Origin: Desulfurella acetivorans A63 | Lineage (GTDB): Bacteria > Campylobacterota_A > Desulfurellia > Desulfurellales > Desulfurellaceae | Length of the DNA: 64,000 nucleotides | Direction of reading: 5' to 3' | NCBI GenBank assembly: GCA_000517565.1 | Contig: CP007051.1 | Coordinates: 1,341,949 to 1,405,948, forward strand | Shown here: positions 1,593 through 27,463 of the stretch, one piece after another | How the letters are laid out: each line of letters starts with the position of its first letter | Position numbering within the stretch: the first letter of the stretch is position 1 | Notes under the pieces: generated by a model | Databases searched by the model: none | What the model saw: only the letters and a program-made list of their open reading frames with translations | Told to the model about the DNA's origin: nothing | Position numbers and translations under genes: made by a program

Positions 1593-1594
1593 AA

Positions 1595-9466: not shown

Positions 9467-10233
9467 TTGAGTAAAAGAGTTAAAAAATTTCTTTTGCTCA
9501 AAAGAAAGTAATATATATACCGAAAGACAAATTGCTGTATTAATGGCTATAAGTATTATCATCTGGTATTTTACAGCTTCTATTGGGTTTACACCAGAAA
9601 GTATTTGACCTGTCATCATACCAGGAAGACTAACAATACCCATAGCACTAACGCTTGCAAGTTGTGGCATAAGGCTTGAGCGAAAAGCTCTTTGTTTAAA
9701 TTCGATGGTAGCTTCTCTGGCTGTTGCACCAAGTGAAAGTAATTCTTCTATATATTGTTTGTTTTGGTGTATTTCACTAAAAAAACGCTCTATTGCAATA
9801 GTTGTAGAGTTCATTGAGTTTCCAACAATCATGCCTGCCAATGGGATAAAATACCTCGCTTCGAACGGATTTTTAAGTCCAATACTAACAAAAGACATAA
9901 AAAGTGTAACAACAAACCCTGCAATAAAAATAGCGCCAAATATAATTATATTTGCATGTGAAATTTTACTTTTGTTCTTTCTTTGACAATATTTGCTGCA
10001 AATAAAACCATTATTGCATAATAGATTAAAATGACGAATGCGTTATTTATCTGGAATATAAATTTTAGAATATATCCAATTAGTAAAAGTTGTACGCTCA
10101 TTCTGACAAATGAATATATAATATCTTTTGTTAGCTTAAGGTTTTCTGTATAATTAACAAAAAAAGCTACAAAAAGCATGAAGTAAGATATAATAAGCTG
10201 CACTAATGAAATAGTTTCAACTTGCGATTGCAT
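9455..10233 (-). pseudogene. fetB: FetB-like ABC transporter permease, frameshifted
   Basis: Permease of the FetB/YbbM (UPF0014) family, partner of the ATPase just upstream, implicated in iron export in E. coli. The start at 10233 follows AAGGAT and overlaps the ATPase gene by 17 bases. The N-terminal half (VETISLVQLIISYFML ... RMSVQLLLIGYILKFIF) is in one frame and the C-terminal half (FIPLAGMIVGNSMNS, LSLGATAREA, GIVSLPGMMTGQIL) in another. The frame changes between about 9957 and 9978, where A4 runs occur on the coding strand. One indel restores a protein of about 258 residues, the normal size. It may be a true pseudogene or a sequencing error. Confidence 0.82.
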
Positions 10234-10855
10234 AACGATCCTTAATTTCAATTTTTTGTGTACAAAATTCTTTTATAGATTCTGTGTGAAAAGAACTTAC
10301 TATAAGTTTTTTTTCGGATAGGGATTTTAATAATTGTAGTGTTTTTTGCTCCATTTTAGCATCAAGAGCGCTTGTGGGTTCATCCAGCAATAAACACTCG
10401 GGATCAAGCAATAAAGCTCTTATAATTGCAATGCGTAATTTTTCACCACCTGAAAGTTGATTGATGTTTTTTTCTGCAGCATCCTGTAATTCAAAATATT
10501 CAAGTAAATCATTTAGTTTTTTATCGTCAAAAACTTTATTTGCATTGAATTTAAAACTAAATGGCAATCTAATACAATCCATTACATTCATCTGACCAAG
10601 GATGGGCATTTGAGGTACATAAATACACTTTGACCTAAACTCAGGAATGTTAAATTCATAAATTGATACACCCTTATAAAAAATTTCACCGCTAGATGGT
10701 TTCTCTAAAGCACACATTATTCTTAAAATTGTTGATTTTCCACTACCCGATGCTCCTTTAAGCCATACCAATCCAGAGTATTCAAGCTTGAATGTTGTAT
10801 TTTCTATGATTTTTTTGCCATTTTTTTCCATACTTACATGTTTTAATTCAAACAT
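10217..10855 (-). CDS. fetA: FetA-like ABC transporter ATP-binding protein
   Basis: Cytoplasmic ATPase of 212 residues for the FetB-type permease that follows. Walker A GASGSGKST, Q-loop VPQMP, signature LSGGEKLRIAIIRALL, Walker B CLLLDEPTSALD and H-loop SSFHTE are all intact. The short form without extra C-terminal domain matches FetA/YbbL. The ATG follows a promoter by only 7 bases and has no ribosome site, so the transcript is probably leaderless. Because its permease gene is frameshifted, the transporter may be inactive in this strain. Confidence 0.88.
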   Translation of the reverse strand: MFELKHVSMEKNGKKIIENTTFKLEYSGLVWLKGASGSGKSTILRIMCALEKPSSGEIFYKGVSIYEFNIPEFRSKCIYVPQMPILGQMNVMDCIRLPFSFKFNANKVFDDKKLNDLLEYFELQDAAEKNINQLSGGEKLRIAIIRALLLDPECLLLDEPTSALDAKMEQKTLQLLKSLSEKKLIVSSFHTESIKEFCTQKIEIKDRYAIAS

Positions 10856-12177: not shown

Positions 12178-12205
12178 ATTATACGATAATTAATTCAAGA
12201 ATCAA
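12178..12205 (-). promoter_or_regulatory. promoter of the membrane-protein gene, apparently leaderless
   Basis: Minus strand: TTGATT (12205-12200), 16-base spacer, TATAAT (12183-12178), 6 bases to the ATG at 12171. It overlaps the end of dsrN. Confidence 0.6.
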
Positions 12206-13558
12206 GTTTATTTTCTTTTATCCAATTATAAAAGAAATCGCTTTTCTCGTCAAAAATATGAGAAAATCCTGCCATCACATTATCTTTGAGAGCATAATCA
12301 CAAACTCCATTAATCCCATAACCTCTTATCACATCAAAAAAACATTCAATATCTTTAAATTCAGTAAAGAAACCATGGTGAAATTCATGCGCATATATTT
12401 TTTTATTTTCTATAAAACTATGCTTTTTTTTGGGGGATAGTATTGTATAGCCATGACCTTTTGGCTTATTTGAAAGTTGGGTTTCCAAATTAAATATACC
12501 ACACATTTTAGCCTTATTTTCATTGTACTCAATACTATTTGTTAAATACATCAAACCACCGCATTCGGCAAATATTGGTAAACCTTCTTTAGAAGCCTTT
12601 TTTATTTGATTTCTAAGATCAAAATTTTTTTGTAGCTGATCTAAAAATAACTCAGGAAAACCACCTCCAATATAAATTGCATCGGCTAATGGAATAGACT
12701 CATCTTTTATTGGAGAAAATTTTTTTATTTCTACACCCATGGATTGTAAGTTTTGTAAATTTTGTTTGTAGTAAAAATTAAATGCTTCGTCAAAAGCAAT
12801 AGCAATAACAACCTGTTTTTTTAGTTTTCTAATAGGCACATTATAATTCTCAACATGAAGTTTTGGAGCATTGTAAGCAATCTTAGTAATCTGTGTTACA
12901 TCGAGATAGTTTTCTAAATTAGATGTTATATTTTCTATTAATTCTTGTTTTTTTTCTTCTTGTAATACTGAGGTTAGGCCTAGATGCCTTTGGGTTATTG
13001 ATACGCTTTGGGCTGGTAGAGTACCTAAGATAGGTAAATCTGTATAATTTTTGATTGCTTCTATTAATTTTTTTTCTTGCCTTACAGATTGAATTTTGTT
13101 TAAAATAACACCAGATATAAAAACATCTTTATCAAAATCCACTATTCCTTTTAACAAAGCAACCAAACTTCTACCTAATTCACTTACATCTACTACTATT
13201 ACTACTGGCGTTTTTGTAATCTTAGCTAAACTGGCATTGCTCGTTTTGCCATCCAAATAAATATCATCAAACAAACCATGGTTTCCTTCAATTAAAAAAA
13301 GCTGCATTTACTTTGATCTATTTTGTTAACAAAATAACTATATATTTGATCTTTTAAAAAGAAAAAATCTAAATTAAAACAAGGATTGTTACTTGCAAGT
13401 TCAAGCCACATTGGATCTATATAGTCGGGCCCTTTTTTAAATGTTAAAAGTTTATATTTTCTGGATAAAATCTTCGATAATGCAATTGAAATGGTTGTTT
13501 TTCCAGAACTTTTTTTAAAAGCACTTATGTATATGCGAGGAGCACTAATTTCTTTCAT
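12195..13558 (-). pseudogene. dsrN: DsrN-like siroheme amidase (CbiA/CobB family), frameshifted
   Basis: ATP-dependent amidotransferase of the cobyrinate a,c-diamide synthase family. In dsr loci such a homologue, DsrN, amidates siroheme for sulfite reductase, and the position next to siroheme synthase supports that over cobalamin synthesis. The N-terminal P-loop region (FKKSSGKTTISIAL, FKKGPDYIDP) ends out of frame at a T7 run (13294-13300, written as A on the plus strand). An eighth T would restore SFF-LIEGNHGLFD, the family's EGxxGLFDG site. The rest, including the glutaminase ECGGLMYL with the nucleophile cysteine, is intact to 12195. Repaired length is about 454 residues. An internal ATG at 13307 could start the second fragment. 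Confidence 0.8.
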
Positions 13559-14898: not shown

Positions 14899-16369
14899 TT
14901 ACAGTACAATTGCAGCGCTTACCAGCTGATGTATACCGCCAACCCAGTCTCTTTCAAAACCATAAAGAGGAAACATTGCGTAAAACTGTGTTTTGCATAT
15001 TGCACAAATTGTAGCAAAAAAGTTTACATTATTTTTATCAACAACTTCCTTGAAAGCCTGCATCCTTGGCATTACACCATTTATGCGTGTTTGCATAATT
15101 TCGTCTGTTAAAAGTCCGGCGCCTGCACCGCAGCAGAATGTTTTTGCTTTTATTGCTCCTTCCTGCATATCTACAAAATTATTACATACAGATTTAATTA
15201 AATCCCTTGGTATGCTAAATTGGTCTCCTGGTTGGGTGCCCATACGAGATGCCCTTGCTACATTGCATGGATCGTGATAGGTTACTGTTTTATCGTCGTT
15301 TGCGCTTTTATCTATTTTAATTACACCATCTCTAATAAGGCCAAGTGTGAAATCGCATATATGGGATGGCTGCGGGTATTTTGGGTCCAGAAAATCAAAT
15401 GGTCCATTCATTGTATTTGAGTAATTATAAGCTGCTCTCCAGGCATGACCGCACTCGCCTATAATAACACGCTTTACTTTGAGCCTTTTTGCTTCTTCCC
15501 AGATACGTTTGTTTATCTCTTTGGTATTTGTGTAACTTCCTATAAACATACCAAAGTTTGCAGCCTCAGATGCATAAGATGATAATGTATAACTAATACC
15601 TGCTTTGTAAAATACCTTCGCATAACCAAACATTGACTCAATATGCGGTATGGCAAAAAAATCAGCAGACGGCGGCACAAGCAAAACTTCTGCGCCTTCT
15701 TCATCAATTGGTATTTTTATGTCTTTACCTGTTTCATCTTTTAAATCTTCTTCAAATTCTGCAATTGTATTTTTTAATGCGTTTGCATCTATGCCAATAT
15801 TGTTACCTGTTCTGTAAACTTGTGTTATTGTGTTTGTAGCATACTTTTCACCAACACCAATAGAGTTCATTATTTCTCTTGCAGCCATTGTAATTTCTGC
15901 TGTATCTAATACCATAAGGGCAAAAATAAGAGCATCTTCTGCATTCCGAACACTGGTAAAAATAAGACATCCATTGTTTTAATACATGTTCGCTAAATGG
16001 CTCTCCTTTTGAGCTAAACGGTGTAAAATAGTACCTGTAAACCTTGCGCATAAGCTCTGCTCTGCCAACAGGTGTATTGTTGATATCGCCACTACCTAAG
16101 AAAAACTGGCACTTATCCGTGCAAGCACCGCATCTTACACATATATCCATGTATGTCTTTAGTGCCTTATTGTTGTCTAAAAGTTCTTTAAACACACCAA
16201 CTGCCTTATCTTGCCAGCCTTCTTGAAGTTTCTTTGGAAATCCCAAAGTTTCCATATCTTCTTCAAGGGCTAAAAAAGTAAATTCACTAGCCTGATTGCC
16301 TTTTCTTAAAAGTTTTGGGGTCTGAATTTTGCCCGTAAGTTTATGAATATGGTAGTGTTCTTTTGACAT
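14899..16369 (-). pseudogene. dsrK: DsrK, iron-sulfur subunit of the DsrMK menaquinol oxidoreductase, frameshifted
   Basis: Cytoplasmic HdrD-like subunit that would pass electrons from DsrM to DsrC. The N-terminal fragment carries two [4Fe-4S] motifs (CVRCGACTDKC and CSECRRCSYFCPYGI). The C-terminal fragment carries HEVG-type and CCG sequences, including TFCCGAGAGLLTDE and ATICAICKTQF, as in subunits that bind the catalytic iron-sulfur cofactor. The frame breaks at about 15905-15910, just after CPYGI. Removing one base from the coding string GGTATTAGATACA would give GI-DTAEITMAAREI and a continuous protein of about 489 residues. The break is not in a long homopolymer. The gene starts 11 bases before the dsrM stop side, in operon order dsrM-dsrK. 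Confidence 0.88.
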
Positions 16370-16380
16370 TTTGCCTCTCC

Positions 16381-17151
16381 TTAAATTGTTAACCTTGTTG
16401 TTCTTTCATCTGTATATCTATTTTCCCTTACATCATCATTCATAGCAAGTGTTGGAGAAAAGAATATACCTACAAAGTGCATAATTTTACTAAATGGTAT
16501 GTAGGCAAGCAGTATTAACACTAAAGTATAGTGTAGCAGGAAAAATGGATTGTGTGGTATATCAACTGGCTGGAAAATAAATAGCTTATTAAAAAATGCG
16601 TCCAATTGCACCACACTTTTTTCAAGCGCAGCTGGACTTTGGAATACTATCTCAGACAATCCTGCTATTGTAATTAGCATCAACAATACAAGTATAAAAT
16701 AATCTGATAGTACACTTATAAATTTAACCCTTTCTACAAATATTCGCCTTAAAAACAAATAAACCAAACTTATAAGCATAAGTGTACCAAACACAAGACC
16801 TATGGGTACAAGTAAATTATACCATGCTGGAGGATTGCCGTGATAAAAATCATACACATAATGCCTTAAAACATGCTGAATAAGCACTATAGCCAAACTT
16901 ACGTGAAATACATACCCTCCAACCCAGGTACTTTTGTTTGACCTATAAAGGCTTTTAAAGAAAAAAACCTCCCCAAGTACCCTAAAAAACGCTCCTGTTT
17001 TGGTTTTAGGTGCTGGGGTAAGAGGTATTTTTACGGGCATAGGCGTTTTAGCGTAAACTATTATTTTCCAAACCACACCAATAATCAAAATTGCAAAAGC
17101 AGCATATGTCAAAATAACGTACATAAAACTCACAAAATCTAAATTATCCAT
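16381..17151 (-). CDS. dsrM: DsrM, cytochrome b subunit of the DsrMK complex
   Basis: Membrane subunit of 256 residues in the NarI/DsrM family that oxidises menaquinol and feeds electrons to DsrK. About five to six membrane helices are visible. Histidines placed as heme b ligands occur in HVSLAIVLIQHVLRH and in HNPFFLLHYTLVLILLAY ... MHFVG. The start at 17151 follows GGAGGGG; the upstream in-frame codon is not needed. It is intact, unlike its partner DsrK. No dsrJ, dsrO or dsrP is present, so this is the minimal DsrMK form. Confidence 0.9.
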   Translation of the reverse strand: MDNLDFVSFMYVILTYAAFAILIIGVVWKIIVYAKTPMPVKIPLTPAPKTKTGAFFRVLGEVFFFKSLYRSNKSTWVGGYVFHVSLAIVLIQHVLRHYVYDFYHGNPPAWYNLLVPIGLVFGTLMLISLVYLFLRRIFVERVKFISVLSDYFILVLLMLITIAGLSEIVFQSPAALEKSVVQLDAFFNKLFIFQPVDIPHNPFFLLHYTLVLILLAYIPFSKIMHFVGIFFSPTLAMNDDVRENRYTDERTTRLTI

Positions 17152-17173
17152 ATATCCCCTCCAAAAGCAAAAC

Positions 17174-17202
17174 AAAAGGCGAAAAAAAGATTTTCGCCTT
17201 TT
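17174..17202 (-). terminator. intrinsic terminator or attenuator between dsrC and dsrM
   Basis: Stem AAAAGGCGAAAA / TTTTCGCCTTTT with a 5-base loop, followed on the minus strand by a T-rich tract (GTTTTGCTTTT). It lies 9 bases after dsrC and before the dsrM ribosome site, so it should reduce read-through from dsrABDLC into dsrMK. Confidence 0.75.
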
Positions 17203-17211
17203 TATATGGTT

Positions 17212-17553
17212 TTATACACAGCCTGTTGGTTTTGATAAGCCTGCATACCTAACAAGCTGCCTTGCTGGGCCTTCTGGAAATAAAACATATATGTGCTTGT
17301 TGCCTTCCCTGACATTTGGTAAATTGCAAATTTCTGCAACCTGTTTTGCTACAGCTCTAATGGAAGGGGCAACCTGGTATTCTTTGTAGTACTCTCTTAC
17401 ATAATCAATCAATTTCCAATGTTCTTCTTTTAGTTCTATGCCATCCTGTTTTGCCATAAACTCTGCAAGTTCTTTGCTCCAATCTTCCTGATGCTGGATA
17501 TAGCCTTCATCATCTATCTCTATTTTTTTTCCGTTAAAATCTAAAAAAGCCAT
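17212..17553 (-). CDS. dsrC: DsrC/TusE-family sulfur-carrier protein lacking CysB
   Basis: Protein of 113 residues with the DsrC fold: EIDDEGYIQHQEDWSKELAE, HWKLIDYVREYYKE, APSIRAVAK. It ends in KPTGCV, so the penultimate cysteine (CysA, Cys112) is present. In DsrC of sulfite reducers a second cysteine (CysB) sits 11 positions earlier; here that position is Val101 (codon GTT at 17253-17251), in QLVRYAGLSKPTGCV. The cysteine pattern is therefore that of TusE, though the gene lies in a dsr operon between dsrL and dsrM. An AAAGGAGG site precedes the ATG. Without CysB the intramolecular DsrC trisulfide described for sulfite reducers could not form. Confidence 0.92.
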   Translation of the reverse strand: MAFLDFNGKKIEIDDEGYIQHQEDWSKELAEFMAKQDGIELKEEHWKLIDYVREYYKEYQVAPSIRAVAKQVAEICNLPNVREGNKHIYVLFPEGPARQLVRYAGLSKPTGCV

Positions 17554-17566
17554 AAAACCTCCTTTT

Positions 17567-18971
17567 TTACATTTTTTCTATATAGCCACATGGACAATTT
17601 TCAAAACACTTCATACACCCATCACATGTTTCAAGATGAAATTCATAATGCTGACCCTTTGGTAATTTCTTTACAGCTCCATGAGAACAATATGTAAAGC
17701 AATTACCGCAGTCAAAACAAAGTCCGCAACTCATGCAACGCTTGGTTTCTTCAATAAACTCTTCCATTGACAAAGCATTCATGAAAGGTTCAAAATCTTT
17801 AACACGCTCATTTGGTTCTCTAAACGTTCTTTCATGGCGCGGTTTTGTTTCGTATAAATCTAAATGCATCTTGTCTGATTCGATAACTTTTCTTGTATCC
17901 TGTTCTATAATTTTTTTTACCTGTTATATGTTCAATTATATTTGCTGCTGCGGCAAAACCATGCCCAATTGCCGTAGTTACATACATCAACCTCGGACCC
18001 ACTACATCGCCACCTGCAAATACTTCTTCGTAAGCATCGAGGGCTTCTCTTGAAGCTTTTTTATCAAAAGTCTCTTTGTCTGGCACAGTTCTTCTATAGG
18101 CGAATGTGACGTTTGCACCCCATCTCTTGCTTATCATAGCAGCATCTGCTGCCGTATCTGCGCCAACTACCACAACATCTTTACCTATATCCAATTTCTC
18201 ACCATTTGCAAAACGGTATAAAAACTCAAGTCCGCTATAAACACCTTTTATGCTATCAATATTTTCTAATCTAGGTTTTTCTGGTTTGTATGCACCTACT
18301 GCAAGGTAAATACAATCAAATTCTTTCTTTAATTCTTAAATATCTAGATCTTTGCCTAATGCCTTGGAGCATTTAATTTCTACTCCAAGATCAACAATCC
18401 TTTGTATTTCTGCATTTACAATTTCTTTTGGTAATCTGAAATTAGGTATACCATAGTATAAAAAACCACCGGGTTTTTCTTCTTTTTCAAATATGGTTAC
18501 CTTTACACCTCTTCTTGCAAGGTGGTATGCACAGGATAAGCCAGATGGCCCAGAGCCTATAATTGCTACTTTTGCATCGTATGTCTCATCAAGTTTTTTT
18601 AAAGGTAACTTATGTTTTAGTGCAAAATCGCCAATAAACATTTCGCAGGCATTGATATTTACGGCACTATCCTTGTCTTTTCTATTGCATCTTGATTCGC
18701 AAGGATGGGGGCAAACCCTACCTGTAGTTGAAGGTAGAGGGTTTGTTTGAGCAATAATATAGAAAGCGCCCTCCAGCGCTTCTTCATAGGTTCTGCCGTA
18801 ATCTTGTGCCTGAGCAATATACTGGAGAAATTCCCTAACCTGTTCTCCATTTGGACATGTATCAGAACAAGGAGGGCGCTTTTCTACGTATATTGGCCTA
18901 TCAGAAGAATATTCTGTGCCAGTTGGTTTACTGAAACTTTCAATACTTTTTTTAACCTTTACTACAGCCAT
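17567..18971 (-). pseudogene. dsrL: DsrL-like NAD(P)H-dependent iron-sulfur flavoprotein, with stop codon and frameshift
   Basis: Homologue of the glutamate synthase small subunit, arranged as in DsrL. An N-terminal iron-sulfur region (CSDTCPNGEQVREFLQY, CPHPCESRC) is followed by an FAD fingerprint (IIGSGPSGLSCAYHLARRG), then a nucleotide-binding VVVGADTAADAAM, and a C-terminal ferredoxin pair (CMSCGLCFDCGNCFTYC and CDGCMKCFENCPCG). It would supply electrons from a pyridine nucleotide to DsrAB or DsrC. Two lesions are seen. An in-frame TAA at 18338-18336 splits GKDLDI from ELKKEFDCIYLAVGA in the same frame. A frameshift occurs at an A8 run (T8 at 17911-17918), where one A fewer would join ITGKK to IIEQDTRK. 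Repaired length is about 467 residues. Confidence 0.85.
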
Positions 18972-18980
18972 AAAAGCTCC

Positions 18981-19223
18981 TTATTGTGTTTGATCTTCAG
19001 GCAAAGTCAGAAAGCTCCCTCCTGCGTAACCATAAATCAATTCACCGTTATCTGTAAGTTCTTTTATAGCGGCTTTTGCATCTTTTCTTGTTATATTCTC
19101 GCTTTGAAAGTTTTGCTCAACTTCTTTTTCTAAATCCTGAGGTTTAAATCTTTTTTTGCCGTGGTATTCCTTTACTAGATTAACCACAAATTCCTTTATC
19201 TTTTGTTTTTGCTCATCAGTCAT
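18981..19223 (-). CDS. dsrD: DsrD, small winged-helix protein of the dsr operon
   Basis: Protein of 80 residues with the winged-helix pattern of DsrD: KIKEFVVNLVKEYHGKKRF, then KDAKAAIKELTDNGELIYGYAGGSFL. DsrD accompanies dsrAB in organisms that use the enzyme reductively, and has been reported to activate DsrAB. Its presence therefore argues that this locus descends from a reductive pathway. The start at 19223 follows AAGGAGG; an in-frame codon further upstream lacks a site. It lies 47 bases after dsrB. Confidence 0.85.
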   Translation of the reverse strand: MTDEQKQKIKEFVVNLVKEYHGKKRFKPQDLEKEVEQNFQSENITRKDAKAAIKELTDNGELIYGYAGGSFLTLPEDQTQ

Positions 19224-19270: not shown

Positions 19271-20323
19271 TCACCTAATCCTGAAATCATCAATATGGTA
19301 TTTTGTAAACTCAAAGCCCGTTATTTTAAAGAATTTCGGCCATCCAATCCTATCAATCCATTCTGCTACACGTTCTCCTTTTCTTGCACCTTCTTTGTAT
19401 GCTTCAAGTATTGTCCTTACGGCTTCGATAACTTCTGGCCATCTTGGCGGATTATTTGGAAGCCATGGCACTACCAGTTTTGAAAAAGTTGGCTTGGTTC
19501 TTGCATTTGAAACTTTGCCCCCAATAAATATTGCCACTCCATCATTTAGAGGATCAGCTATAGGAAGCGCAGGGCAAACTGTATAGCAGTTACCGCAATA
19601 AACGCATCTATCTTCATCGATTTCCACAGAAGGCTTACCATCTATAGTTTTTGGCCTTACTGCATCTACCGGACACGCCGCTATTGTACTTGGTATCTCG
19701 CACAAATCCTTTACCCTATCTGCCATAACTCTTGGTGGTCTTCTGTGCATTCCCACAATTGCAATATCAGAAGCACCCACAGAACCACACATATTAAGAC
19801 AACACGCAAATGCCATTCTTACCTTTGCGGGTAATTTGTCTGAAACAAAATAATCATAAAACTCATCCATTAAGGCTTTAACTACACCTGATGCATAACT
19901 TGCAGATGTATGGCAATGTAGCCAACCTTGAGTATGTACAATATTGCCAAGCGAATGATCGATCCCACCAACTGGAAAACCCAATGCCTGTACTTCTTTA
20001 ATTAAGGGTTCAATATTTTCTTCTTTATCAAGAAGAAATTCTAAGTTATTTCTCGTTGTAAATTTTAAGTAACCGCCGCAATACTTATCTGCAAGATCAG
20101 ATATTTCCCTTACAAAATCACTGCTAACTATCCTTGTTGAGCCTACCCTTACAGTATAGAGCTTCTCACCAGACTCTGAGACATGAACCATAACACCTGG
20201 TTTTAAAATCTCATGATACAACCACTTACCATAATTTCTTTTAATTATAGGCGGTAAAAAATCTTCATAGTGTGGTGGACCTATATCTGTAATTCTTACT
20301 GTTCCTTTATCTACATCTGGCAT
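19271..20323 (-). CDS. dsrB: dissimilatory sulfite reductase subunit beta
   Basis: Catalytic subunit of 350 residues, full length. DsrB features include the N-terminal [12 protein letters not shown], the [10 protein letters not shown] segment, the siroheme/iron-sulfur cysteine motif [22 protein letters not shown], and an inserted ferredoxin domain (CPVDAV ... [16 protein letters not shown]). With DsrA it reduces sulfite, and the product sulfur is taken up by DsrC. The ATG follows GGAGG, which overlaps the dsrA stop codon. The reading frame is clean, in contrast to several neighbours. Confidence 0.95.
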
Positions 20324-20326
20324 AGT

Positions 20327-21433
20327 TTAACCCTCCTTTCCTTCTTCTTCATCATCTGGCACTAAATATTCTTCAAATTTGATAAATGGATTTGCCCTTG
20401 GATACTCTACCATTTCTGGTAGTGGATCCAAACCTATAGCTTCAAGGAAATTCCCTACGCCTACCCTTTGGATTAATTCTCCTACACGTTCTCTGTTTGT
20501 ACCGTATTCATCCCAGAAATCCCATATCTTTTGAATCAAGTCTTTTAAGAAAGCGTAATCTTCTTCTTTGTCTTTATTTACATCGTAAAAAGGTATAAGT
20601 ATAAACCCAAGCCTTGGATCCTGGACCATAGGTACTTTAGCACCTATTCTAATTTGCGCACCTTTTTCTAATCCAGGTCTTAGAGCTTTTGGCATAGAGT
20701 TAATGCAATGCATGCATTTTACGCAGTTTGAATCATCGATAGTTAATTTGCCATCAGTATAATCCATGCAATGAGTAGGACATTTATCAACTACATACTT
20801 TTTAATATCAAATTTCTTTGCGTATTCTGCAACTTCCTTTTGGTCAATTCTGATATTGGCTTTCCATACACCCACAATAGATAAATCAGACCTGGCACCA
20901 GATGCTATGCAATCGTTTGGGCAACCTGCACATTTGATCTTAAACTTATAGTTAAATGTTGGCCTGTGCATCTCGTTTTGGAATTCTCTTGTTAAGTTAT
21001 CTGTGATGTGGAGTGTATCGTAGGTTGCCCACTCGCAACGAGCTGGTCCCACGCAACAGCTTGGTGTTCTGAGTGCTGAACCACTGCCACCAAGATCAAA
21101 ACCTAAGTGAGTACATTTTTGAAATAGCTCTTCTGCTTCTTCCTGTTTAAAACCAAGTATCTGGATATCACCTGTTGAACCATGAAAGTTAAATAAACCA
21201 CCTGCGTGTTCATCACAAATATCCGCCAGCTTCCTCAATACATCCGATGTGTAAAAAAAACCTTCAATCTGATTTAATCTAGCCGTATGATATTCTTTAA
21301 CACCTGGATATTCATCTGGTTCATCAGAAAACCTACCAACTATACCTCCACCATAACCTCTAACACCTGCCATACCCCCATGTTTCCAGTGAGGTATTCT
21401 GTCTTGATAGGATTTTTCCAGTTGACCTATCAA
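20327..21433 (-). CDS. dsrA: dissimilatory sulfite reductase subunit alpha, N-terminus missing
   Basis: Alpha subunit; 368 residues are visible. Signatures: HWKHGGMAGVRGYGGGIVGR, NFHGSTGDIQ, LRTPSCCVGPARCEW, KIKCAGCPNDCIASGARSD, and a ferredoxin domain with CPTHCMD and CVKCMHCINSMPKAL. The first usable codon is a TTG at 21433 within what is normally residue 45-55 of DsrA. Four codons further upstream in frame is a TAG, and no other frame in the A/T-rich upstream sequence encodes the missing PLLDELEKGPWPSF-type N-terminus. No ribosome site precedes the TTG. Either the protein starts unusually late or the 5' end of the gene has been lost. Confidence 0.88.
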   Translation of the reverse strand: MIGQLEKSYQDRIPHWKHGGMAGVRGYGGGIVGRFSDEPDEYPGVKEYHTARLNQIEGFFYTSDVLRKLADICDEHAGGLFNFHGSTGDIQILGFKQEEAEELFQKCTHLGFDLGGSGSALRTPSCCVGPARCEWATYDTLHITDNLTREFQNEMHRPTFNYKFKIKCAGCPNDCIASGARSDLSIVGVWKANIRIDQKEVAEYAKKFDIKKYVVDKCPTHCMDYTDGKLTIDDSNCVKCMHCINSMPKALRPGLEKGAQIRIGAKVPMVQDPRLGFILIPFYDVNKDKEEDYAFLKDLIQKIWDFWDEYGTNRERVGELIQRVGVGNFLEAIGLDPLPEMVEYPRANPFIKFEEYLVPDDEEEGKEG

Positions 21434-21646: not shown

Positions 21647-22270
21647 TTAAAGCAAATTTAATAAATTTGCAATAATTTGCTTGAAATCTTTACTGCTAAA
21701 TTGATAGAATTGTTTTTTGTGATTAAAAAAATTGTTTAAATCTTTATCATTTGCAAGAACAATTTTATTTTTTAAACTACTTATCCCATATATGTCTTTA
21801 AAATAGAAAAATTGTTCTGTATTATTAAAATAAATTATATCAAAAGGAGGTAACTCATGCTGTTTATAAACACAACCTTGTAACTTTATTTTAATTATGT
21901 TATTTAATTTAGATAATTTTTTAATAAATCCATTGTTGGAGTTATAATTGTATACATAACAAATTTCAAGTTGTCTAATTGAATCAATTTTCTTAATACT
22001 TTGTAGACAATATTTCTTAAAAAAATCAAAAACTTCACTTGAATTGGTTATGAGTGTTGGTAAAAGGCGTATATCCATCTCTTTATCTTGAAAAAATTTA
22101 ATTAAAGCCTCAGCAATTTTTAAATCACAAACTGCTATAGCATTGCAATTAGATATTTTTTTTAGAAGCTCATTGTTGATATTGTAATTAACACTAAAAT
22201 CATAATCAATTGGCTTTGCTCCTATATCTTTAAAATTAAAGTACAACTTATAATCTATGGGCGCGGGCAA
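21647..22270 (-). CDS. hemD: uroporphyrinogen-III synthase-like protein
   Basis: Protein of 207 residues placed directly after the SUMT domain protein, a position usually held by hemD, often as a CobA-HemD fusion. HemD proteins are weakly conserved. Here the late segments FDIIYFNNTEQFFYFKDIYG (family: the aDaivftS..av..f motif) and the spacing of two Rossmann-like halves fit the assignment. The start is probably the TTG at 22270, overlapping the upstream stop by 16 bases with AAAGGG before it. The two frames lie so close that a former fusion is easy to imagine. The assignment rests more on context than on motifs. Confidence 0.65.
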   Translation of the reverse strand: MPAPIDYKLYFNFKDIGAKPIDYDFSVNYNINNELLKKISNCNAIAVCDLKIAEALIKFFQDKEMDIRLLPTLITNSSEVFDFFKKYCLQSIKKIDSIRQLEICYVYNYNSNNGFIKKLSKLNNIIKIKLQGCVYKQHELPPFDIIYFNNTEQFFYFKDIYGISSLKNKIVLANDKDLNNFFNHKKQFYQFSSKDFKQIIANLLNLL

Positions 22271-23523
22271 TAAAACCCTTTTATCCTGAAGGATGCCATT
22301 TTTTTATAATAAAAGCTGGATATATCTCCTACAATAAATATACCTGGAGGATTATCGTAAAATAATCGACTTTTTAACTCGTTAACTTTACAAGTTATAT
22401 CAGACAAAGTTCCTCTTATTTCAAATTCTTTATCTGTGCCTATGCTAAATATAAGAGCAACTTTAGTTTGAGGCGAATAACCTTCGTTTATTAAAGAACT
22501 ACTTATTTTATCAATAACTTTTACTCCCATAAAAAAAACCAATGGCAAAGTAGTTAATTCATTTTTGCTAAACTCAGCAGCAGCCCCTTTATGTTTAATG
22601 GCAGATAAAACGCAAAAACCTCTATTTACTTCCCTTCGTGTTAAAATAATACCGCTTCTTATAGACAAAGCATTTATAGTACTTATACCAGGCACAATAT
22701 TAAAATTAATTTTTAAATCTTCCAATACTTTTATTTCCTCAGCAAGTCTGCCAAAAATTGAAGGATCTCCTCCCTTTAGTCTGCCTACTCTAAAACCCAT
22801 TCGAGCATATGTACTTATTAAATCAGTGATTTTTGATTGATTTAATTTGTGATGCTCGCATCTTTTTCCCACATCTACTAAAATTGCATTATCTGGAAGA
22901 AAATCTAATAAATCATGGTCCATCAAGTTATCAAATAAACATACTTCTAAATGTTTTATAGTATCAATAGCTTCTTGTGTTGCGTATTTTTTATCACTTA
23001 CACCTGCTCCAATAAAATATACGCTTTTTATAAAAAACTGACGCAATAATGTAAAACTTTCATCATTTTTTCTAAATTCAACGCAGGCAAAACCTTCAAA
23101 CAAAGGTTTTTGCATATCGGCTATGTTAATTTTTTCAGTATAAAATTCATATTTACTATCATATGCAACATAACCTGGAAGCATAACTGTACTATAATCA
23201 GCTATTAATTGATCAATGCTTTTAAACTCCCTAATAAATGAAATGGTTGCATTATTAAATCTTTTTTTACAATAAAGCCATTGGCTATTAGTCACAACAC
23301 CAATTTTTTCTATATTGGTTTGTTTTGAAATTAAAAGATCAAATTCATTATTTTCGTATAAATTTACAAAAAACCAGTCTAAAAAATCTAACTTAAAATC
23401 CAAACAATTTTTTGCATCAATTACTGCACAATCAATAATTTTTTCATGCAAGAAAGAAGCTATTTGTTCCATAGAATTACAATCTTGAAAATCAAAACTG
23501 AATTCTAAATACTTACCAAACAA
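22255..23523 (-). CDS. cobA: fusion of a degenerate HemC-like domain and uroporphyrinogen-III C-methyltransferase
   Basis: Protein of 422 residues. Residues about 167-415 are a full SUMT domain: VYFIGAGVSDKKYATQEA, VDVGKRCEHHKLNQ, GRLKGGDPSIFGR and VPGIST. It methylates uroporphyrinogen III to precorrin-2 for siroheme. Residues 1-160 look like the middle of porphobilinogen deaminase (IGVVTNSQWLY for GTSSLRR, then LFEGFACVEFRKND for GQGALAIECR). However, the catalytic HSLKD is replaced by IDAKN (residues 35-39) and the substrate-binding arginines are missing, so this part should be inactive as HemC. The start is uncertain: TTG at 23523, with the frame open about 19 codons further. Confidence 0.8.
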   Translation of the reverse strand: MFGKYLEFSFDFQDCNSMEQIASFLHEKIIDCAVIDAKNCLDFKLDFLDWFFVNLYENNEFDLLISKQTNIEKIGVVTNSQWLYCKKRFNNATISFIREFKSIDQLIADYSTVMLPGYVAYDSKYEFYTEKINIADMQKPLFEGFACVEFRKNDESFTLLRQFFIKSVYFIGAGVSDKKYATQEAIDTIKHLEVCLFDNLMDHDLLDFLPDNAILVDVGKRCEHHKLNQSKITDLISTYARMGFRVGRLKGGDPSIFGRLAEEIKVLEDLKINFNIVPGISTINALSIRSGIILTRREVNRGFCVLSAIKHKGAAAEFSKNELTTLPLVFFMGVKVIDKISSSLINEGYSPQTKVALIFSIGTDKEFEIRGTLSDITCKVNELKSRLFYDNPPGIFIVGDISSFYYKKMASFRIKGFYCPRP

Positions 23524-23634
23524 ATTTAGTTTTTCTTTAATAAATATAATGAGCTTTAAAAGGATTAGCCAAACTGATTAAACTTTTTAGTTTCATAAAG
23601 AAGAATTTAGCATATTGTATATTTTTAGTCAAAC

Positions 23635-23661
23635 TAGACCAAAGGCAAAGCCTTTGGTCTA
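23635..23661 (-). terminator. hairpin at the end of the micro-protein gene cluster
   Basis: TAGACCAAAGGC / GCCTTTGGTCTA, a perfect 12-bp stem with a 3-base loop; the stop codon of the last small gene is part of the stem. The T run after it on the minus strand is weak. Confidence 0.65.
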
Positions 23662-23745
23662 TTGTTTATCAGGTGTTAGCCAAATAAATAATGCAAAAAG
23701 CCAACCAACAACTGCACAGCCTATCAAATAGTTAACTAAAGACAT
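23659..23745 (-). CDS. 28-residue single-helix membrane micro-protein
   Basis: The ATG at 23745 follows a strong AAGGAGGAAC site, and the frame encodes 28 residues ending in TPDKQ. Residues 4-23 (VNYLIGCAVVGWLFALFIWL) form one membrane helix. It is the last of four genes in a row on the minus strand, separated by 16 bases from the previous one. The size recalls CydX-type subunits of cytochrome bd, and cydAB lies nearby on the other strand, but the sequence does not match CydX as I know it. Function unknown. Confidence 0.6.
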   Translation of the reverse strand: MSLVNYLIGCAVVGWLFALFIWLTPDKQ

Positions 23746-23761
23746 ACTTGTTCCTCCTTTA

Positions 23762-23848
23762 TTAAAAGGGTCCCTGCATTCCAGCTGGCAAAGACCATAA
23801 AATTGCAGGAATAGCAAATGTATACAAAGCTGCAAATGTTACTACCAT
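23762..23848 (-). CDS. 28-residue membrane micro-protein
   Basis: Its ATG (23848-23846) overlaps the stop of the 132-residue membrane gene, so translation is probably coupled. The predicted peptide is mostly one hydrophobic helix (VVTFAALYTFAIPAILWSL), followed by PAGMQGPF. It has no ribosome site of its own, which makes it less certain than the neighbouring micro-protein. Function unknown. Confidence 0.5.
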   Translation of the reverse strand: MVVTFAALYTFAIPAILWSLPAGMQGPF

Positions 23849-24240
23849 CCTACAAGTTTTTCGTCCATTCTACCTTGCATAAGCAAACCTGCTAAATTCA
23901 TCGCCACAAACCACACAAAAGCAATTGACGCATGATAAACCCAGCTAACTTTTAAACCATTTAATAGCCAAAACAATGCATAAGCAAGCGTAAGCCACCC
24001 AATCAAAATAGCAATCCCGCCAAGAGATTTTTTAGGTAGCGAAAAAATTTCCAATATACCCAAAACCATAAAAAAGAAAGCATACATGCCGGCAAGACCT
24101 GCAACAAAATTTGTTATTGGCCCAAGTCCTTCATTGGAAATCATAGCTATTAAAAAAGGCCACCACATTACACCAACAACCAAAGTTATTACTCCTACAG
24201 TTTTTTCATTAGCTTTTTTTCTTTCAGAGTCTAGATGCAT
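23842..24240 (-). CDS. hypothetical four-helix membrane protein
   Basis: Protein of 132 residues with a charged N-terminus (MHLDSERKKANEK) and four hydrophobic segments, rich in Trp, Phe and Gly: VGVITLVVGVMWWPFL, FVAGLAGMYAFFFMVLGI, GGIAILIGWLTLAYALFWLL and ASIAFVWFVAMNLAGLLM. I do not recognise a family with confidence; there is only a faint likeness to small channel proteins. The ATG follows AAGGA, which overlaps the stop codon of the preceding gene. It belongs to a four-gene unit of small membrane proteins facing the Rrf2-cydAB unit. Confidence 0.75.
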   Translation of the reverse strand: MHLDSERKKANEKTVGVITLVVGVMWWPFLIAMISNEGLGPITNFVAGLAGMYAFFFMVLGILEIFSLPKKSLGGIAILIGWLTLAYALFWLLNGLKVSWVYHASIAFVWFVAMNLAGLLMQGRMDEKLVGW

Positions 24241-24246
24241 AAATCC

Positions 24247-24414
24247 TTAAGACAATAAAGCAAATGCACCTAAATAAATAATTGGAGCAATCCATTTACC
24301 CACTACTGACTGAGCTTGATCAGCAGCATAGGCATGACAAAAAAAGGTCAAAAAAAATAAAAAACACATGACAGATGTTAGAAAACTTTTAGACAATAAA
24401 CCTTTTTGACTCAT
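24247..24414 (-). CDS. 55-residue exported or membrane small protein
   Basis: First gene of the micro-protein unit. The ATG at 24414 follows a strong AAGGAGGTGA site. Residues 1-31 look like a signal peptide (core VMCFLFFLTFFCHAYA), after which ADQAQSVVGKWIAPIIYLGAFALLS gives a short periplasmic part and a second hydrophobic segment. No family is recognised. The next gene begins 7 bases after its stop. The promoter region upstream shares an 18-bp element with the divergent rrf2 promoter. Confidence 0.65.
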   Translation of the reverse strand: MSQKGLLSKSFLTSVMCFLFFLTFFCHAYAADQAQSVVGKWIAPIIYLGAFALLS

Positions 24415-24453: not shown

Positions 24454-24500
24454 GTAATTTACGTAAGTTACTAATTATATAATTTAGTAATATTTTTTAT
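24454..24500. promoter_or_regulatory. control region of the micro-protein unit: palindromes and shared 18-bp element
   Basis: It contains a near-palindrome around TTACGTAA (24454-24471), an inverted repeat TTACTAA (24468-24474) / TTAGTAA (24484-24490), and TTTAGTAATATTTTTTAT (24483-24500), which recurs exactly at the rrf2 promoter. On the minus strand TTGACA (24506-24501) could be the -35 element, so the repeats would cover the core promoter. Confidence 0.5.
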
Positions 24501-24683
24501 TTGTCAAGAAAATAATTTAATATCGTTTTAAAATATTATTAGTTTTTCTAATTTAATTTTACTTGATTTTTTATTATAAATAAAGGACTTTTGATTAATT
24601 TTTTTAAATTTATACTTTGAATCATATTAAATAATTGTTACAAAAAATTTTAAGTTAAATTAGAATTTTTTTGCATTTTAATC

Positions 24684-24712
24684 TTGACTTTTTTAGTAAT
24701 ATTTTTTATATT
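24684..24712 (+). promoter_or_regulatory. promoter of the Rrf2 gene with the shared 18-bp element
   Basis: TTGACT (24684-24689), 17-base spacer, TATATT (24707-24712), 6 bases to the ATG at 24719: an apparently leaderless start. The spacer is filled by the second copy of TTTAGTAATATTTTTTAT (24692-24709), suggesting an operator for autoregulation. Confidence 0.55.
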
Positions 24713-24718
24713 TTAACT

Positions 24719-25123
24719 ATGAATATTATTTCAAGGGAAATTGATTACGCGATAAGGATATTGAGTTTGCTTTCAAATATCGAAAGCGCAACAGTTGAAG
24801 AAATTAGCAAAATACTCTATATTCCAAAGCCATTTGCACATAAAATTGTCAATAAACTTGTTAGGAAAAATTATCTTTTGTCTTCTCAAGGAAGAGGCGG
24901 ATACATTGAATTTAATAAAGATTTGGATACAAGTAGAATAAGTGTACTTGATATAATTAAGGACTTGGGTGGCTATAAACATGTTAATTTATGTACAGAT
25001 GATCCAAGCGCCTGCGAATTAAACCCATACTGTAGCTTCACATACCATTTGCAAAAATTAGAACTTTGTATTAATAAAGCTTTAGATGACTTAAAATTGA
25101 AAGATATAATCTTTAGAATTTGA
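24719..25123 (+). CDS. Rrf2-family transcriptional regulator with three cysteines
   Basis: Winged-helix regulator of 134 residues. The N-terminal DYAIRILSLLS and the recognition-helix region IPKPFAHKIVNKLVRKNYLLSSQGRGG-type sequence are typical of Rrf2. A cluster-binding loop has three cysteines, CTDDPSACELNPYC (spacing C-x6-C-x5-C), similar to IscR and NsrR, so a redox- or NO-sensitive iron-sulfur cluster is likely. The start at 24719 fits the family's N-terminus; no ribosome site precedes it. cydA follows 13 bases after its stop, behind GGAGGT. It probably controls cydAB and possibly the divergent micro-protein unit. Confidence 0.9.
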   Translation: MNIISREIDYAIRILSLLSNIESATVEEISKILYIPKPFAHKIVNKLVRKNYLLSSQGRGGYIEFNKDLDTSRISVLDIIKDLGGYKHVNLCTDDPSACELNPYCSFTYHLQKLELCINKALDDLKLKDIIFRI

Positions 25124-25136
25124 GGAGGTAAGGTTT

Positions 25137-26444
25137 ATGGATGCAGAGTTATTGTCTAGGATACAGTTTGGCGTTACTGCAGGCTTTCACTTTATTTATC
25201 CACCGCTTACGATCGGTTTGGGTACACTAATTGCAATAATTGAGTATATGTACCTTAAAACCAACGATGAAATTTACAGAAAAATGGCGGATTTTTGGGC
25301 TAAACTTTTTGCCATTAACTTTGTTATTGGCGTTGCAACAGGCATTGTAATGGAATTTGAATTTGGTACAAACTGGTCAAATTACTCAAGGTTTGTAGGA
25401 GATATATTTGGGGCGCCATTGGCTGCTGAAGGTGTTTTTGCATTTTTCTTAGAAAGTACATTTTTAGGTTTATATTTGGTTGGAAAAAATAGATTATCCA
25501 GATTTATGAGGTTTTTTTCATTTTTGATGGTTGCTTTCGGCTCAACACTATCTGCTTTGTGGATTTTAATTGCAAACTCATGGCAACAAACACCCGCTGG
25601 ATATAAGGTGGAGGGTGGCAGGGCTGTTTTGACAAACTTCTGGGAAGCAGTTTTTAACCCAACAATGCCTTCTATGTTTTTGCATACAGTAGATGCCTCA
25701 TATATTACGGGTGCGATATTCATGGCTGGCATTAGTGCGTATTTTCTGATAAAAGGAAAAAATTTAGAACTAGCTAAAAGATCATTGAAATTAGCTGTAA
25801 TTTTTGGCGTAATAGTATCAATTTTACAGCTTTTCCCGTTTGGCGATGAAAGTGCAAGGGTAGTTGCAAAAACTCAACCAGAAAAGTTAGCATCTTTTGA
25901 AGGTTTATTTAAAACACAAAGTAAAGCACCATTGCTCGTTTTTGGCATACCTGATCCTTCACAAAATAAAATGCTTGTCGAAATAGGAATACCAGGCGCT
26001 TTAAGTTTTTTAGCTGATCATAATGTCAATGCTGTTGTTAAAGGTATTGATGCATTTCCAAAAGATGACTTACCGCCTATGACTTTAACTTTTTATTCCT
26101 TTCACTTAATGGTAGCCCTTGGAACACTCTTTATATTAACTTTTTTAGTCGGCGTGTTTTTGCTTTACAAGAAAAAATTGTTTACAACAAAACCATACTT
26201 ATCAGCATTATGGGCATTTATACCTTTGCCTTACATTGCAAACGAACTTGGCTGGATAACAACAGAAGTAGGCAGGCAACCATGGGCAGTCTATGGTCTG
26301 CTTAGAACAAAAGATGCATTTAGCCCACTACCGGCTGGTGATGTAGCGGTGTCTTTAATAGGATTTACATTAGTTTATGCGGTTTTGTTTGGTATATTTT
26401 TATATTTAACCATACATACCGTAAAAACTTTTAAAATGGATTAA
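25137..26444 (+). CDS. cydA: cytochrome bd oxidase subunit I
   Basis: Quinol oxidase subunit of 435 residues with about nine membrane helices. Heme ligands can be placed: the histidine in AGFHFIYPP, the histidine in SMFLHTVDASY and the methionine in SFHLMVALG. The glutamates of EFEFGTNW and FFLES and the GRQPW motif are also present. The quinol-binding loop is short, so this is the short-Q-loop form. The enzyme reduces oxygen to water and would serve oxygen protection in an anaerobe. AGGAGGT precedes the ATG and cydB follows 11 bases downstream; the Rrf2 gene is first in the unit. Confidence 0.95.
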   Translation: MDAELLSRIQFGVTAGFHFIYPPLTIGLGTLIAIIEYMYLKTNDEIYRKMADFWAKLFAINFVIGVATGIVMEFEFGTNWSNYSRFVGDIFGAPLAAEGVFAFFLESTFLGLYLVGKNRLSRFMRFFSFLMVAFGSTLSALWILIANSWQQTPAGYKVEGGRAVLTNFWEAVFNPTMPSMFLHTVDASYITGAIFMAGISAYFLIKGKNLELAKRSLKLAVIFGVIVSILQLFPFGDESARVVAKTQPEKLASFEGLFKTQSKAPLLVFGIPDPSQNKMLVEIGIPGALSFLADHNVNAVVKGIDAFPKDDLPPMTLTFYSFHLMVALGTLFILTFLVGVFLLYKKKLFTTKPYLSALWAFIPLPYIANELGWITTEVGRQPWAVYGLLRTKDAFSPLPAGDVAVSLIGFTLVYAVLFGIFLYLTIHTVKTFKMD

Positions 26445-26455
26445 GGAGGCTTACA

Positions 26456-27463
26456 ATGGATCTTAATATAATATGGTTTTTTCTTGTTGGCATATTAATA
26501 ATTGGATATGCTATTTTAGATGGTTTTGATTTAGGGGTAGGCTCAGTATATTTATTTGCAAAATTCCAAGAGCGCGACATTGCTTTAAACTCCATAGCAC
26601 CTGTTTGGGACGGAAATGAAGTATGGCTAATAACAGGTGGTGGTGCTTTATTTGCGGCATTTCCAATGGTTTATGCTACAGCGTTTAGCGGATTCTATCT
26701 GGCTTTAATTTTGTTATTGTTTGCTTTGATATTTAGGGCTGTCTCTTTAGAGCTTAGAAATCATTTTCAAAAAGAATCCACAAAAACTTTATTTGATTGG
26801 ATTTTTTCTATATCAAGTATAGTTGCTATAGTTCTTTTTGGCGTAGCTGTAGGAAATGTGCTATCTGGTCTTGATTTAAACAAAAATGGCGATTATATAG
26901 GTACTTTTTTTGATCTACTTAACCCTTATTCTATTTTAGTCGGCGTTTTAGCTTTTTTTATGCTATCCTATCAAGGAACAGTTTGGTTATTTTTAAAAAC
27001 TGAAGGTGAATTTCAACAAAAAGTAAAAAATTGGGCAAAGGTTTACTGGAGCGGTTATTTTATTTTATTTTTAATTTGCACGCTATTAACCTATGTATTG
27101 CACAATAATTTGTTTACTAACTACCTTACACATCCAATAATGTTTGCTATTCCTATTCTTACACTTTTATTTATGCTTGCATCAATCATAAGAATTCAAA
27201 GAAACCAGCCTCTATGTGCAATAATTGCAAGTTCGCTATCCATTGCTATGGTTATATTAACAGCTTATTTAAGCCTCTTTCCTAACCTTATCATTGCAAA
27301 AAATCCCGCATACAATTTGAATATTTACAATGCTGCATCTTCCCAATTAACACTTCAAACCATGTTAATTATAGCATTAATTGGCATGCCTTTAGTATTG
27401 ATTTATACAATATACTCGTATAGAATATTTCACGGTAAAACAAAAATTGAAGAAGGCTACTGA
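26456..27463 (+). CDS. cydB: cytochrome bd oxidase subunit II
   Basis: Partner of CydA, 335 residues with eight to nine membrane helices. The N-terminus (LDGFDLGVGSVY, PVWDGNEVWLITGGGALFAAFP) is diagnostic for CydB, and FRAVSLELRNH follows in the usual place. AAGGAGG precedes the ATG. A perfect hairpin begins directly after the stop codon. No cydX-like frame follows on this strand, and no cydCD is present in the window. Confidence 0.95.
   Translation: MDLNIIWFFLVGILIIGYAILDGFDLGVGSVYLFAKFQERDIALNSIAPVWDGNEVWLITGGGALFAAFPMVYATAFSGFYLALILLLFALIFRAVSLELRNHFQKESTKTLFDWIFSISSIVAIVLFGVAVGNVLSGLDLNKNGDYIGTFFDLLNPYSILVGVLAFFMLSYQGTVWLFLKTEGEFQQKVKNWAKVYWSGYFILFLICTLLTYVLHNNLFTNYLTHPIMFAIPILTLLFMLASIIRIQRNQPLCAIIASSLSIAMVILTAYLSLFPNLIIAKNPAYNLNIYNAASSQLTLQTMLIIALIGMPLVLIYTIYSYRIFHGKTKIEEGY

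Follow-up and report, generated by a model that had tools for sequence, protein, structure and literature searches.

A broken UreI-fold channel gene and a conserved microprotein at the head of a decaying dsr cluster in Desulfurella acetivorans A63

CydX, CcoQ, and KdpF are small subunits with a single transmembrane (TM) helix. We know of no dedicated single-helix partner for any channel of the UreI fold other than the candidate described here, and limited literature searches found no published report of a channel-microprotein pair. Channels for hydrosulfide or sulfite do occur beside sulfite reductases, as FNT-type channels with asrABC and as exporters of the TauE type. For DsrAB, we know of no settled answer as to how sulfite and sulfide cross the membrane. 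The locus discussed here lies in a window of 64,000 nucleotides from D. acetivorans A63 (the whole stretch that was analyzed, in whose numbering all window positions are given), where an earlier note had seen a unit of four tiny membrane proteins facing rrf2 and cydAB. Our overall reading, held with good confidence, is that the window carries a broken channel gene within a decaying dsr cluster, followed by a genuine microprotein, and that in relatives the channel would be a pore for a sulfur solute with the microprotein as its subunit.

Three small frames and one channel gene

All four frames are present on the minus strand, at 24414-24247 (55 aa), 24240-23842 (132 aa), 23848-23762 (28 aa), and 23745-23659 (28 aa), but they are not four genes. 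Structurally, frame 1 (24247-24414) is made up of a signal-peptide-like helix and most of TM1, and it aligns residue for residue with residues 1 to 55 of an intact 217-aa protein in the same-genus genome G002 (locus L012). It stops at an in-frame TAA where G002 has CAA and the second same-genus genome, G001, has CAG. Frame 2 (23842-24240) runs from TM2 to the start of TM6 and is 97% identical to G002 and 89% to G001, both of which stay open through both of its ends. Frame 3 (23762-23848) carries the remainder of TM6 and the conserved GPF end. Frames 1 and 2 share one reading frame with a single TAA between them, while frame 3 overlaps frame 2 and continues it after a 1-nt deletion near 23845, past which alone it is accessible. 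Over its conserved length, the window copy thus has no single open frame but one stop and one frame change, and the family profile recovers it as two pieces, the first with two stops and the second at frame 3.

A protein search with frame 2 found a match in 7 of 61 genomes, the window's own included. The six others are G001 and G002, three genomes of the same order (G009, G010, and G014), and G035 from another phylum; each has an uninterrupted matching frame of 219 to 269 residues, and when these were read out the equivalents of frames 1, 2, and 3 lay within one protein in every case. Since the relatives have a single open frame and the window has one stop and one frame change, frames 1 to 3 are one broken gene, and the alignments show them to be the remains of a gene for one six-helix channel of the AmiS/UreI fold. 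The proposal of four separate tiny proteins is contradicted by the five same-order relatives and G035, whose frames read through without a stop. Frames 1 to 3 are separate in none of the six relatives, and frame 4 is conserved downstream. Good ribosome sites, claimed for three of the frames, are strong before frames 1 and 4, but none comparable was seen by eye before frames 2 and 3. Four independent genes were accordingly rejected as a candidate, on the uninterrupted frame in relatives and the TAA and 1-nt deletion in the window, and for the most part the earlier finding reflects an ordinary event in which one broken gene is taken for several small ones.

The products had also been said to match no known family, which does not hold for the channel. 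Frame 2 by itself scores 22.2 bits against PF02293 (AmiS/UreI; cut-off 25), and the intact G002 protein scores 29.8 bits (31.6 for the genome match). The G001 protein, at 25.1 bits, is also above the cut-off; G009 (21.8 bits) and the broken window copy (21 to 22.2 bits) are below it, and no PF02293 match at E<=0.001 was found in G010, G014, or G035. PF02293 matches 8 of 17 members of the group at E<=1 and leaves 9 of the 17 without a match, which indicates that the group is divergent. An AlphaFold2 model of the G002 protein made with 17 sequences (pLDDT 80.3, pTM 0.71) contains one signal-like helix at residues 9 to 33 followed by six TM helices. Foldseek ranks entries for the Helicobacter pylori urea channel UreI first, at E 1.8e-4 (3ux4) and 2.5e-4, with the next natural chain outside UreI at E 0.77, and the VIA Z scores to UreI (3ux4 and 6nsj) are 19.3 and 18.6 over 168 residues. 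Helix number, Foldseek E, and VIA Z of the model all agree with the six-helix UreI fold. The Z to UreI must be in part generic, as the succinate-acetate permease SatP (5zug, 5ys3) reaches 15.7 to 15.9 and a designed six-helix barrel 15.6. The SatP family (PF01184) is absent from the nine Pfam families listed at E<=1 for the 17 members. When PDB sequences were searched with a profile of the channel family, 0 matches came up at E<=10; tblastn with the intact channel gave no match among plasmids, and no amidase or urease was noted among channel neighbors scanned by eye. Together, the PF02293 match and the structural ranking point to a UreI-fold channel, a statement about fold and not cargo. The predicted structure and the profile scores thus support a six-helix channel that is AmiS/UreI-like but divergent, and that has an extra signal-peptide-like helix at its N-terminus.

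The microprotein and the distribution of the pair

Frame 4 (23659-23745, minus strand) is a different case. It encodes an intact single-TM microprotein of 28 aa behind a strong ribosome site, and an equivalent ORF is present in 18 of the 18 relatives with DNA downstream of the channel (17 relatives and locus L045; L032 was left out because the locus ends inside the channel, and the duplicate loci are L018 = L014, L022 = L015, L023 = L016, and L017 = L028). In these, the ORF lies 10 to 161 nt downstream of the channel gene, has 22 to 29 codons and a ribosome site, and encodes one hydrophobic stretch. A GW pair is invariant in all 19 sequences, window included, and all 13 microproteins from outside the window's order start with M-I/V-P-W. 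The pN/pS ratio is 0.22 over 11 pairs, some of which share members; one pair (L020/L021) is opposite, with 0 synonymous and 4 nonsynonymous changes. As a control, 342 other frames of at least 150 codons at the same loci were followed downstream, and none had an ORF of that size, hydrophobicity, and GW pair (3 of 345 did score, each being the microprotein itself reached through a frame overlapping the channel, hence 0 of 342). Frame 4 therefore combines a conserved ORF, a ribosome site, and a synonymous excess, as a coding microprotein would, and its conservation argues that it is a genuine single-TM microprotein. As a small membrane protein, the fourth member of the proposed unit thus stands: 18 of 18 relatives, a pN/pS of 0.22, and a control of 0 of 342 all speak for it. 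Neither Pfam nor NCBIfam matches the window's frame 4 up to E 10, nor do they place frame 3, also of 28 aa, in any family at that threshold, so that a microprotein conserved across distant lineages is without a matching model in either collection, judged by its window copy. The suggestion of a small membrane complex survives in altered form, in that the channel and microprotein of relatives may form one, but not a four-protein unit.

The gene order around the pair is informative. In the window, the channel is the first gene of a dsr cluster, followed by siroheme synthase and dsrA, B, D, L, C, M, and K; the names dsrD, dsrL, dsrM, and dsrK are presumed from position. In G014 (L016), the channel and microprotein genes are followed by the siroheme synthase fusion and then by dsrA, dsrB, dsrD-like, dsrL-like, dsrC, and dsrM, and the dsrA, dsrB, and dsrC homologues exceed their NCBIfam cut-offs (TIGR02064, TIGR02066, and TIGR03342). 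G001 has this order and extends it to dsrK, and the window has the matching gene set, partly broken, on the channel's strand. The channel thus has dsrA, dsrB, and dsrC as same-strand neighbors. Channel, microprotein, and siroheme synthase also stand together at contig ends in G010 (L014, G010:C3, 12682-14427) and G009 (L015, G009:C90, 1-2131), and no dsrA was found in either genome.

Beyond the genus and order of the window, the channel is carried by Thermosulfurimonas, a Thermodesulfobacteriaceae bin, bins labelled Proteobacteria, and two genomes of G035's phylum. Of the 19 other genomes with the channel, 14 also have dsrA (E below 1e-70). The remaining 5 of the 19 are without a good dsrA: G009, G010, and G099 have no match, G090 has a 37-residue piece, and G098 has a weak match that is probably unrelated. 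Among 25 genomes of the window's phylum, 4 have both genes (one of them being the window with its broken copy), 2 the channel only, 1 dsrA only, and 18 neither, giving p 0.0055 with relatedness ignored. In G035's phylum, dsrA occurs in 24 of 30 genomes and the channel in 2 of 30, which indicates that Dsr can do without the channel and that the latter is accessory. Of 148 genomes sampled from the phylum of T. dismutans, 1 has the channel, T. dismutans itself, and three further Thermosulfurimonas-type records carry it. A second, partial channel copy with an internal TGA was also seen at G091:C32:16237-16608, in a genome labelled Proteobacteria, and G101 has a channel piece of 42 residues.

Among the loci examined, physical linkage of channel and dsr is confined to the window's order; no dsr gene was found near the channel in L017, L019-L021, or L024-L033, except for a DsrC-family match in L019 (31% identity, 5 kb from the channel). 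At loci of the Thermosulfurimonas type, the pair is next to a molybdoenzyme operon identified by eye; it comes directly after the operon in L026 and L027 and directly before it in L024. In L026, the only such operon scanned, the catalytic subunit is nearest to PhsA (272.9 bits against a cut-off of 694) and to the thiosulfate reductase 2vpw. For T. dismutans, PMC4911364 describes thiosulfate and polysulfide reductases with Tat signals in addition to DsrABD. The channel-microprotein pair is conserved, and these neighborhoods and co-occurrences tie it to dissimilatory sulfur metabolism. An alternative is that in relatives the channel has a cargo like that of SatP (acetate or some other small organic acid) or of UreI and AmiS (urea or amides), its place beside dsr being incidental. 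The fold scores (Z 15.7 to 15.9 for SatP, 19.3 for UreI), the use of acetate by Desulfurellaceae (PMC5317093), and the restriction of dsr adjacency to the window's order among the loci examined are in keeping with such a cargo. Against it are the lack of a SatP-family Pfam match in 17 members at E<=1, the adjacency to dsr in the window, G001, and G014, the dsrA of 14 of the 19 other carriers, and the PhsA-like operon adjoining the pair in L026. We regard it as unlikely, and keep to a link with sulfur metabolism.

Decay of the dsr cluster

Each gene of the region in G001 was compared with the window, and the comparison shows the dsr cluster to be decaying in the window's genome while the flanking genes are intact. 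Within the cluster, channel included, 6 of 9 genes are disabled; over the whole stretch from 9.4 to 24.4 kb it is 8 of 15, and among the flanking genes 0 of 30. (Two flanking genes that differ only at an end are among the 30 intact ones; rows r5, r9, and r30 of the comparison were flagged only for start or end differences and counted as intact, the r30 homologue ending 9 codons early and r9 also having one stop relative to G002, and row r12, a wrong-strand frame, was left out of the counts.) The eight disabled genes are an ABC permease, a cobyrinate-synthase-like gene, dsrK, dsrL, dsrB at its C-terminus, dsrA at its start, siroheme synthase, and the channel. In G002, all eight have a single uninterrupted frame, in the case of siroheme synthase up to a contig end, and the lesions are therefore particular to the window's genome. 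Besides 1-nt indels, they include an insertion of 4 nt, two deletions (~276 and ~180 nt), and the channel stop, which arose by substitution.

All genes of the cluster lie on the minus strand. The siroheme synthase fusion (uroporphyrinogen-III methyltransferase; 21647-23523), an intact protein of 652 aa in G001, is broken by a 4-nt insertion near 23539 and a 1-nt deletion near 22299. Next, dsrA (20327-21433; TIGR02064 on the L016 homologue) has lost its start and the ~37 codons at its 5' end, by what appears to be a ~180-nt deletion, and dsrB (19271-20323) has its last ~13 codons altered by a 1-nt insertion near 19281. The dsrD-like gene (18981-19223) is intact, its L016 homologue matching no family model. 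The dsrL-like gene (17567-18971) is broken by a ~276-nt deletion near 18024 and a 1-nt insertion near 17911. Both dsrC (17212-17553; 113 aa; PF04358 and TIGR03342 on the L016 homologue) and dsrM (16381-17151; PF02665 on the L016 homologue) are intact, and dsrK (14899-16369) is broken by a 1-nt insertion near 15909, with PF02754 in its second piece. Further along, beyond dsrK, are the ABC-type permease gene at 9461-10245 and the cobyrinate-diamide-synthase-like gene at 12198-13558; both were named by eye, are frame-broken in the window, and have one open frame in G001 and G002. In L016, siroheme synthase (1021-3003) is itself a fusion, with a Pfam methyltransferase domain at residues 190 to 399, ~190 N-terminal residues that match no model, and a C-terminal part partly covered by NF005524 (191-546, below cut-off). 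In G002, a tyrosine-recombinase-like frame recognized by eye (L044, G002:C89, about 16000-17398) lies upstream of dsrA, in the place held by siroheme synthase in the window and G001, which suggests an insertion that split the G002 cluster.

Codon changes were assigned to branches with G001 as the outgroup, leaving out codons within 60 nt of lesions. On the window branch, 15 nonsynonymous and 51 synonymous changes fall in the six broken genes of the dsr cluster, and on that of G002 the counts are 4 and 63 (Fisher p 0.0065). This excess of amino-acid changes is modest after lesion masking. The window branch of dsrL has also acquired one more stop. In five control genes the counts are 12/56 versus 16/51 (p 0.40; cydA, which is split by a run of N in G002, was used without those codons), and the three intact dsr genes show 1/7 versus 0/11 (p 0.42). 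The channel itself has 0 nonsynonymous and 6 synonymous changes over 217 codons on the window branch, which is no sign of relaxed selection and implies that the break is recent or that the pieces still matter.

Could the interruptions be errors of sequencing or assembly, the channel and dsr genes being intact in the real organism? Some are 1-nt indels in single-base runs (near 17911, 22299, and 23845), a typical error, and with the lesions masked the codon changes give a modest signal (p 0.0065). However, 0 of 30 flanking genes in the same assembly are affected, and the TAA in the channel and the further stop in dsrL, together with the ~276-nt dsrL deletion, the ~180-nt deletion at the dsrA start, and the 4-nt insertion, are not of that kind. 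Intact flanks and varied lesions led us to reject error as the sole cause, and an organism with the whole cluster intact is improbable. It is still less probable that the channel is truly split into three translation-coupled polypeptides that reassemble with the microprotein into a working channel. The fragment frames overlap or almost touch, frame 1 keeps its ribosome site, and the window branch has those 0 nonsynonymous and 6 synonymous changes, but the breaks cut through TM1, at residue 56 in the helix spanning 38-61, and through TM6, at about residue 190 in the helix spanning 185-207, so that none of the fragments is a natural module. In addition, fragments 2 and 3 have no ribosome site convincing to the eye, five further genes of the cluster are broken, and in none of the six relatives examined is the channel split.

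Decay of the cluster leads us to infer from the genes that the channel no longer works in D. acetivorans A63. PMC5317093 assigns PhsA of this strain to Desace_1254 and DsrB to Desace_1401; the best PhsA-like gene in the window's genome scores 520 bits (cut-off 694) and lies 140.5 kb from dsrB. The same paper states that D. acetivorans encodes DsrAB but not DsrC or the DsrMKJOP subunits, and links their absence to its inability to respire thiosulfate. The statement that these are not encoded can be corrected, in that the window contains intact dsrC and dsrM genes as well as a dsrK gene with a frameshift. A disabled cluster, rather than missing genes, is thus offered as the genetic reason for the reported inability.

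The two ends of the pair carry possible control elements. A hairpin had been noted at the end of the unit, and one of 12 pairs does lie at 23635-23661 (minus strand), between the channel-microprotein pair and the siroheme synthase gene. It is present at the matching place in G002 and in G001, where the sequence differs and the structure is kept, and it may terminate transcription in part or mark a site of processing. Next, at 23632, comes a promoter-like site of the TTGACT type, so there may be two transcripts from one cluster, that of the pair and that of siroheme synthase and dsr. Upstream of the channel, a promoter-like site (TTGACA-17-AATTAT, 24479-24507, minus strand) is kept in the G002 alignment and mostly in G001, although such sites number 19 in 3.2 kb versus 16.7 expected. 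The promoter element that was thought to be shared with rrf2 is also real: an 18-base word, TTTAGTAATATTTTTTAT, occurs at 24483-24500 and again at 24692-24709, inside the spacers of both promoters. A shared word of at least 16 bases arises in 8 of 1000 Markov shuffles. The word is 16 bases in G002, and the longest in G001 is a different one of 14 bases, which suggests that the element is kept there only in part. The arrangement would allow for joint control of both promoters by the Rrf2 protein.

On the plus strand, an intact rrf2-type regulator gene (24719-25123) is followed by intact cydA (25137-26444) and cydB (26456-27463), named in the earlier note and by eye. The channel is tied to cydAB by position and the rrf2 promoter word only. 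In a tblastn search of 22 loci and the window, cydA matched only in L012, L013, and the window, which are the three Desulfurella loci; some of the loci are short, and the G014 contig starts 205 bases before the channel. Frame 4 is not CydX-like, having no family match and lying on the strand opposite to cydAB. The proposal of an accessory to cytochrome bd or a quinone enzyme is further weakened by the strand and cluster that the channel shares with dsr. It is scarcely credible that the four frames, controlled by Rrf2, supply accessory subunits to cytochrome bd or to some other quinone enzyme. In its favor are the divergent rrf2-cydAB adjoining in three genomes and the common word (18 bases in the window, 16 in G002). 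Against it, three frames are one channel, which refutes it for frames 1 to 3; the same-strand partners are dsr genes; cydA was found at only three Desulfurella loci among the 22 and the window; and cydAB is intact where the channel is broken. Oxidase subunits were also rejected as a candidate because the 28-aa frames match no family and cydA is absent from the other loci searched.

Proposed role and comparison with known systems

Taking the pair as part of dissimilatory sulfur metabolism, a role can be proposed for the intact channel of relatives. Thiosulfate would be reduced in the periplasm to sulfite and sulfide, with DsrAB in the cytoplasm. The channel may then be a pore, probably a UreI-like ring, for one of the small sulfur solutes in the Dsr pathway. 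Our first choice of solute would be sulfite/SO2 entering from the periplasmic thiosulfate reductase, and our second H2S leaving. Such a pore would pass the small, mostly uncharged form, SO2/H2SO3 inward or H2S outward, and this would be of use to a carrier that tolerates acid, as D. amilsii does (PMC5317093). The ring would be stabilized or gated by the microprotein, bound to it as a one-helix subunit. Ancestrally, the channel likely was a small-solute pore serving Dsr with the microprotein as a subunit, sulfite/SO2 or H2S being its putative substrate. A stronger version is that a new branch of the UreI fold is a sulfite/SO2 (or H2S) pore needing a subunit of ~25 residues, that the pair has passed among sulfur bacteria of distant lineages, and that it is being lost here together with dsr; we offer it tentatively, as a possibility short of an even chance. 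In either form, the channel-microprotein pair is a concrete, testable candidate for the passage of sulfite and sulfide serving DsrAB.

Compared with AmiS/UreI (PF02293; H. pylori UreI 3ux4 and 6nsj), the channel has the same six TM helices and finds there its best fold match, with a Pfam score above the cut-off for the two closest intact relatives. It differs from UreI in its 17-18% identity over the fold alignment, in the signal-peptide-like N-terminal helix of many members, in the TM microprotein downstream at all testable loci, and in having dsr or PhsA-like neighbors in some lineages. SatP (5zug, 5ys3) has a related six-helix fold (Z 15.7 to 15.9), but its fold score is below that of UreI and none of the 17 members has a SatP Pfam match. 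The microprotein resembles CydX, CcoQ, and KdpF, these being proteins of about 25 to 35 residues with one helix, encoded beside a large membrane partner; it differs in having no family match and in that its partner is a UreI-fold channel rather than an oxidase or pump. Lastly, the FNT-type channel with asrABC and the TauE-type exporters share with this locus a gene for a small-solute channel beside a sulfite reductase, although the channel here is of a different fold and family and its reductase is DsrAB rather than AsrABC.
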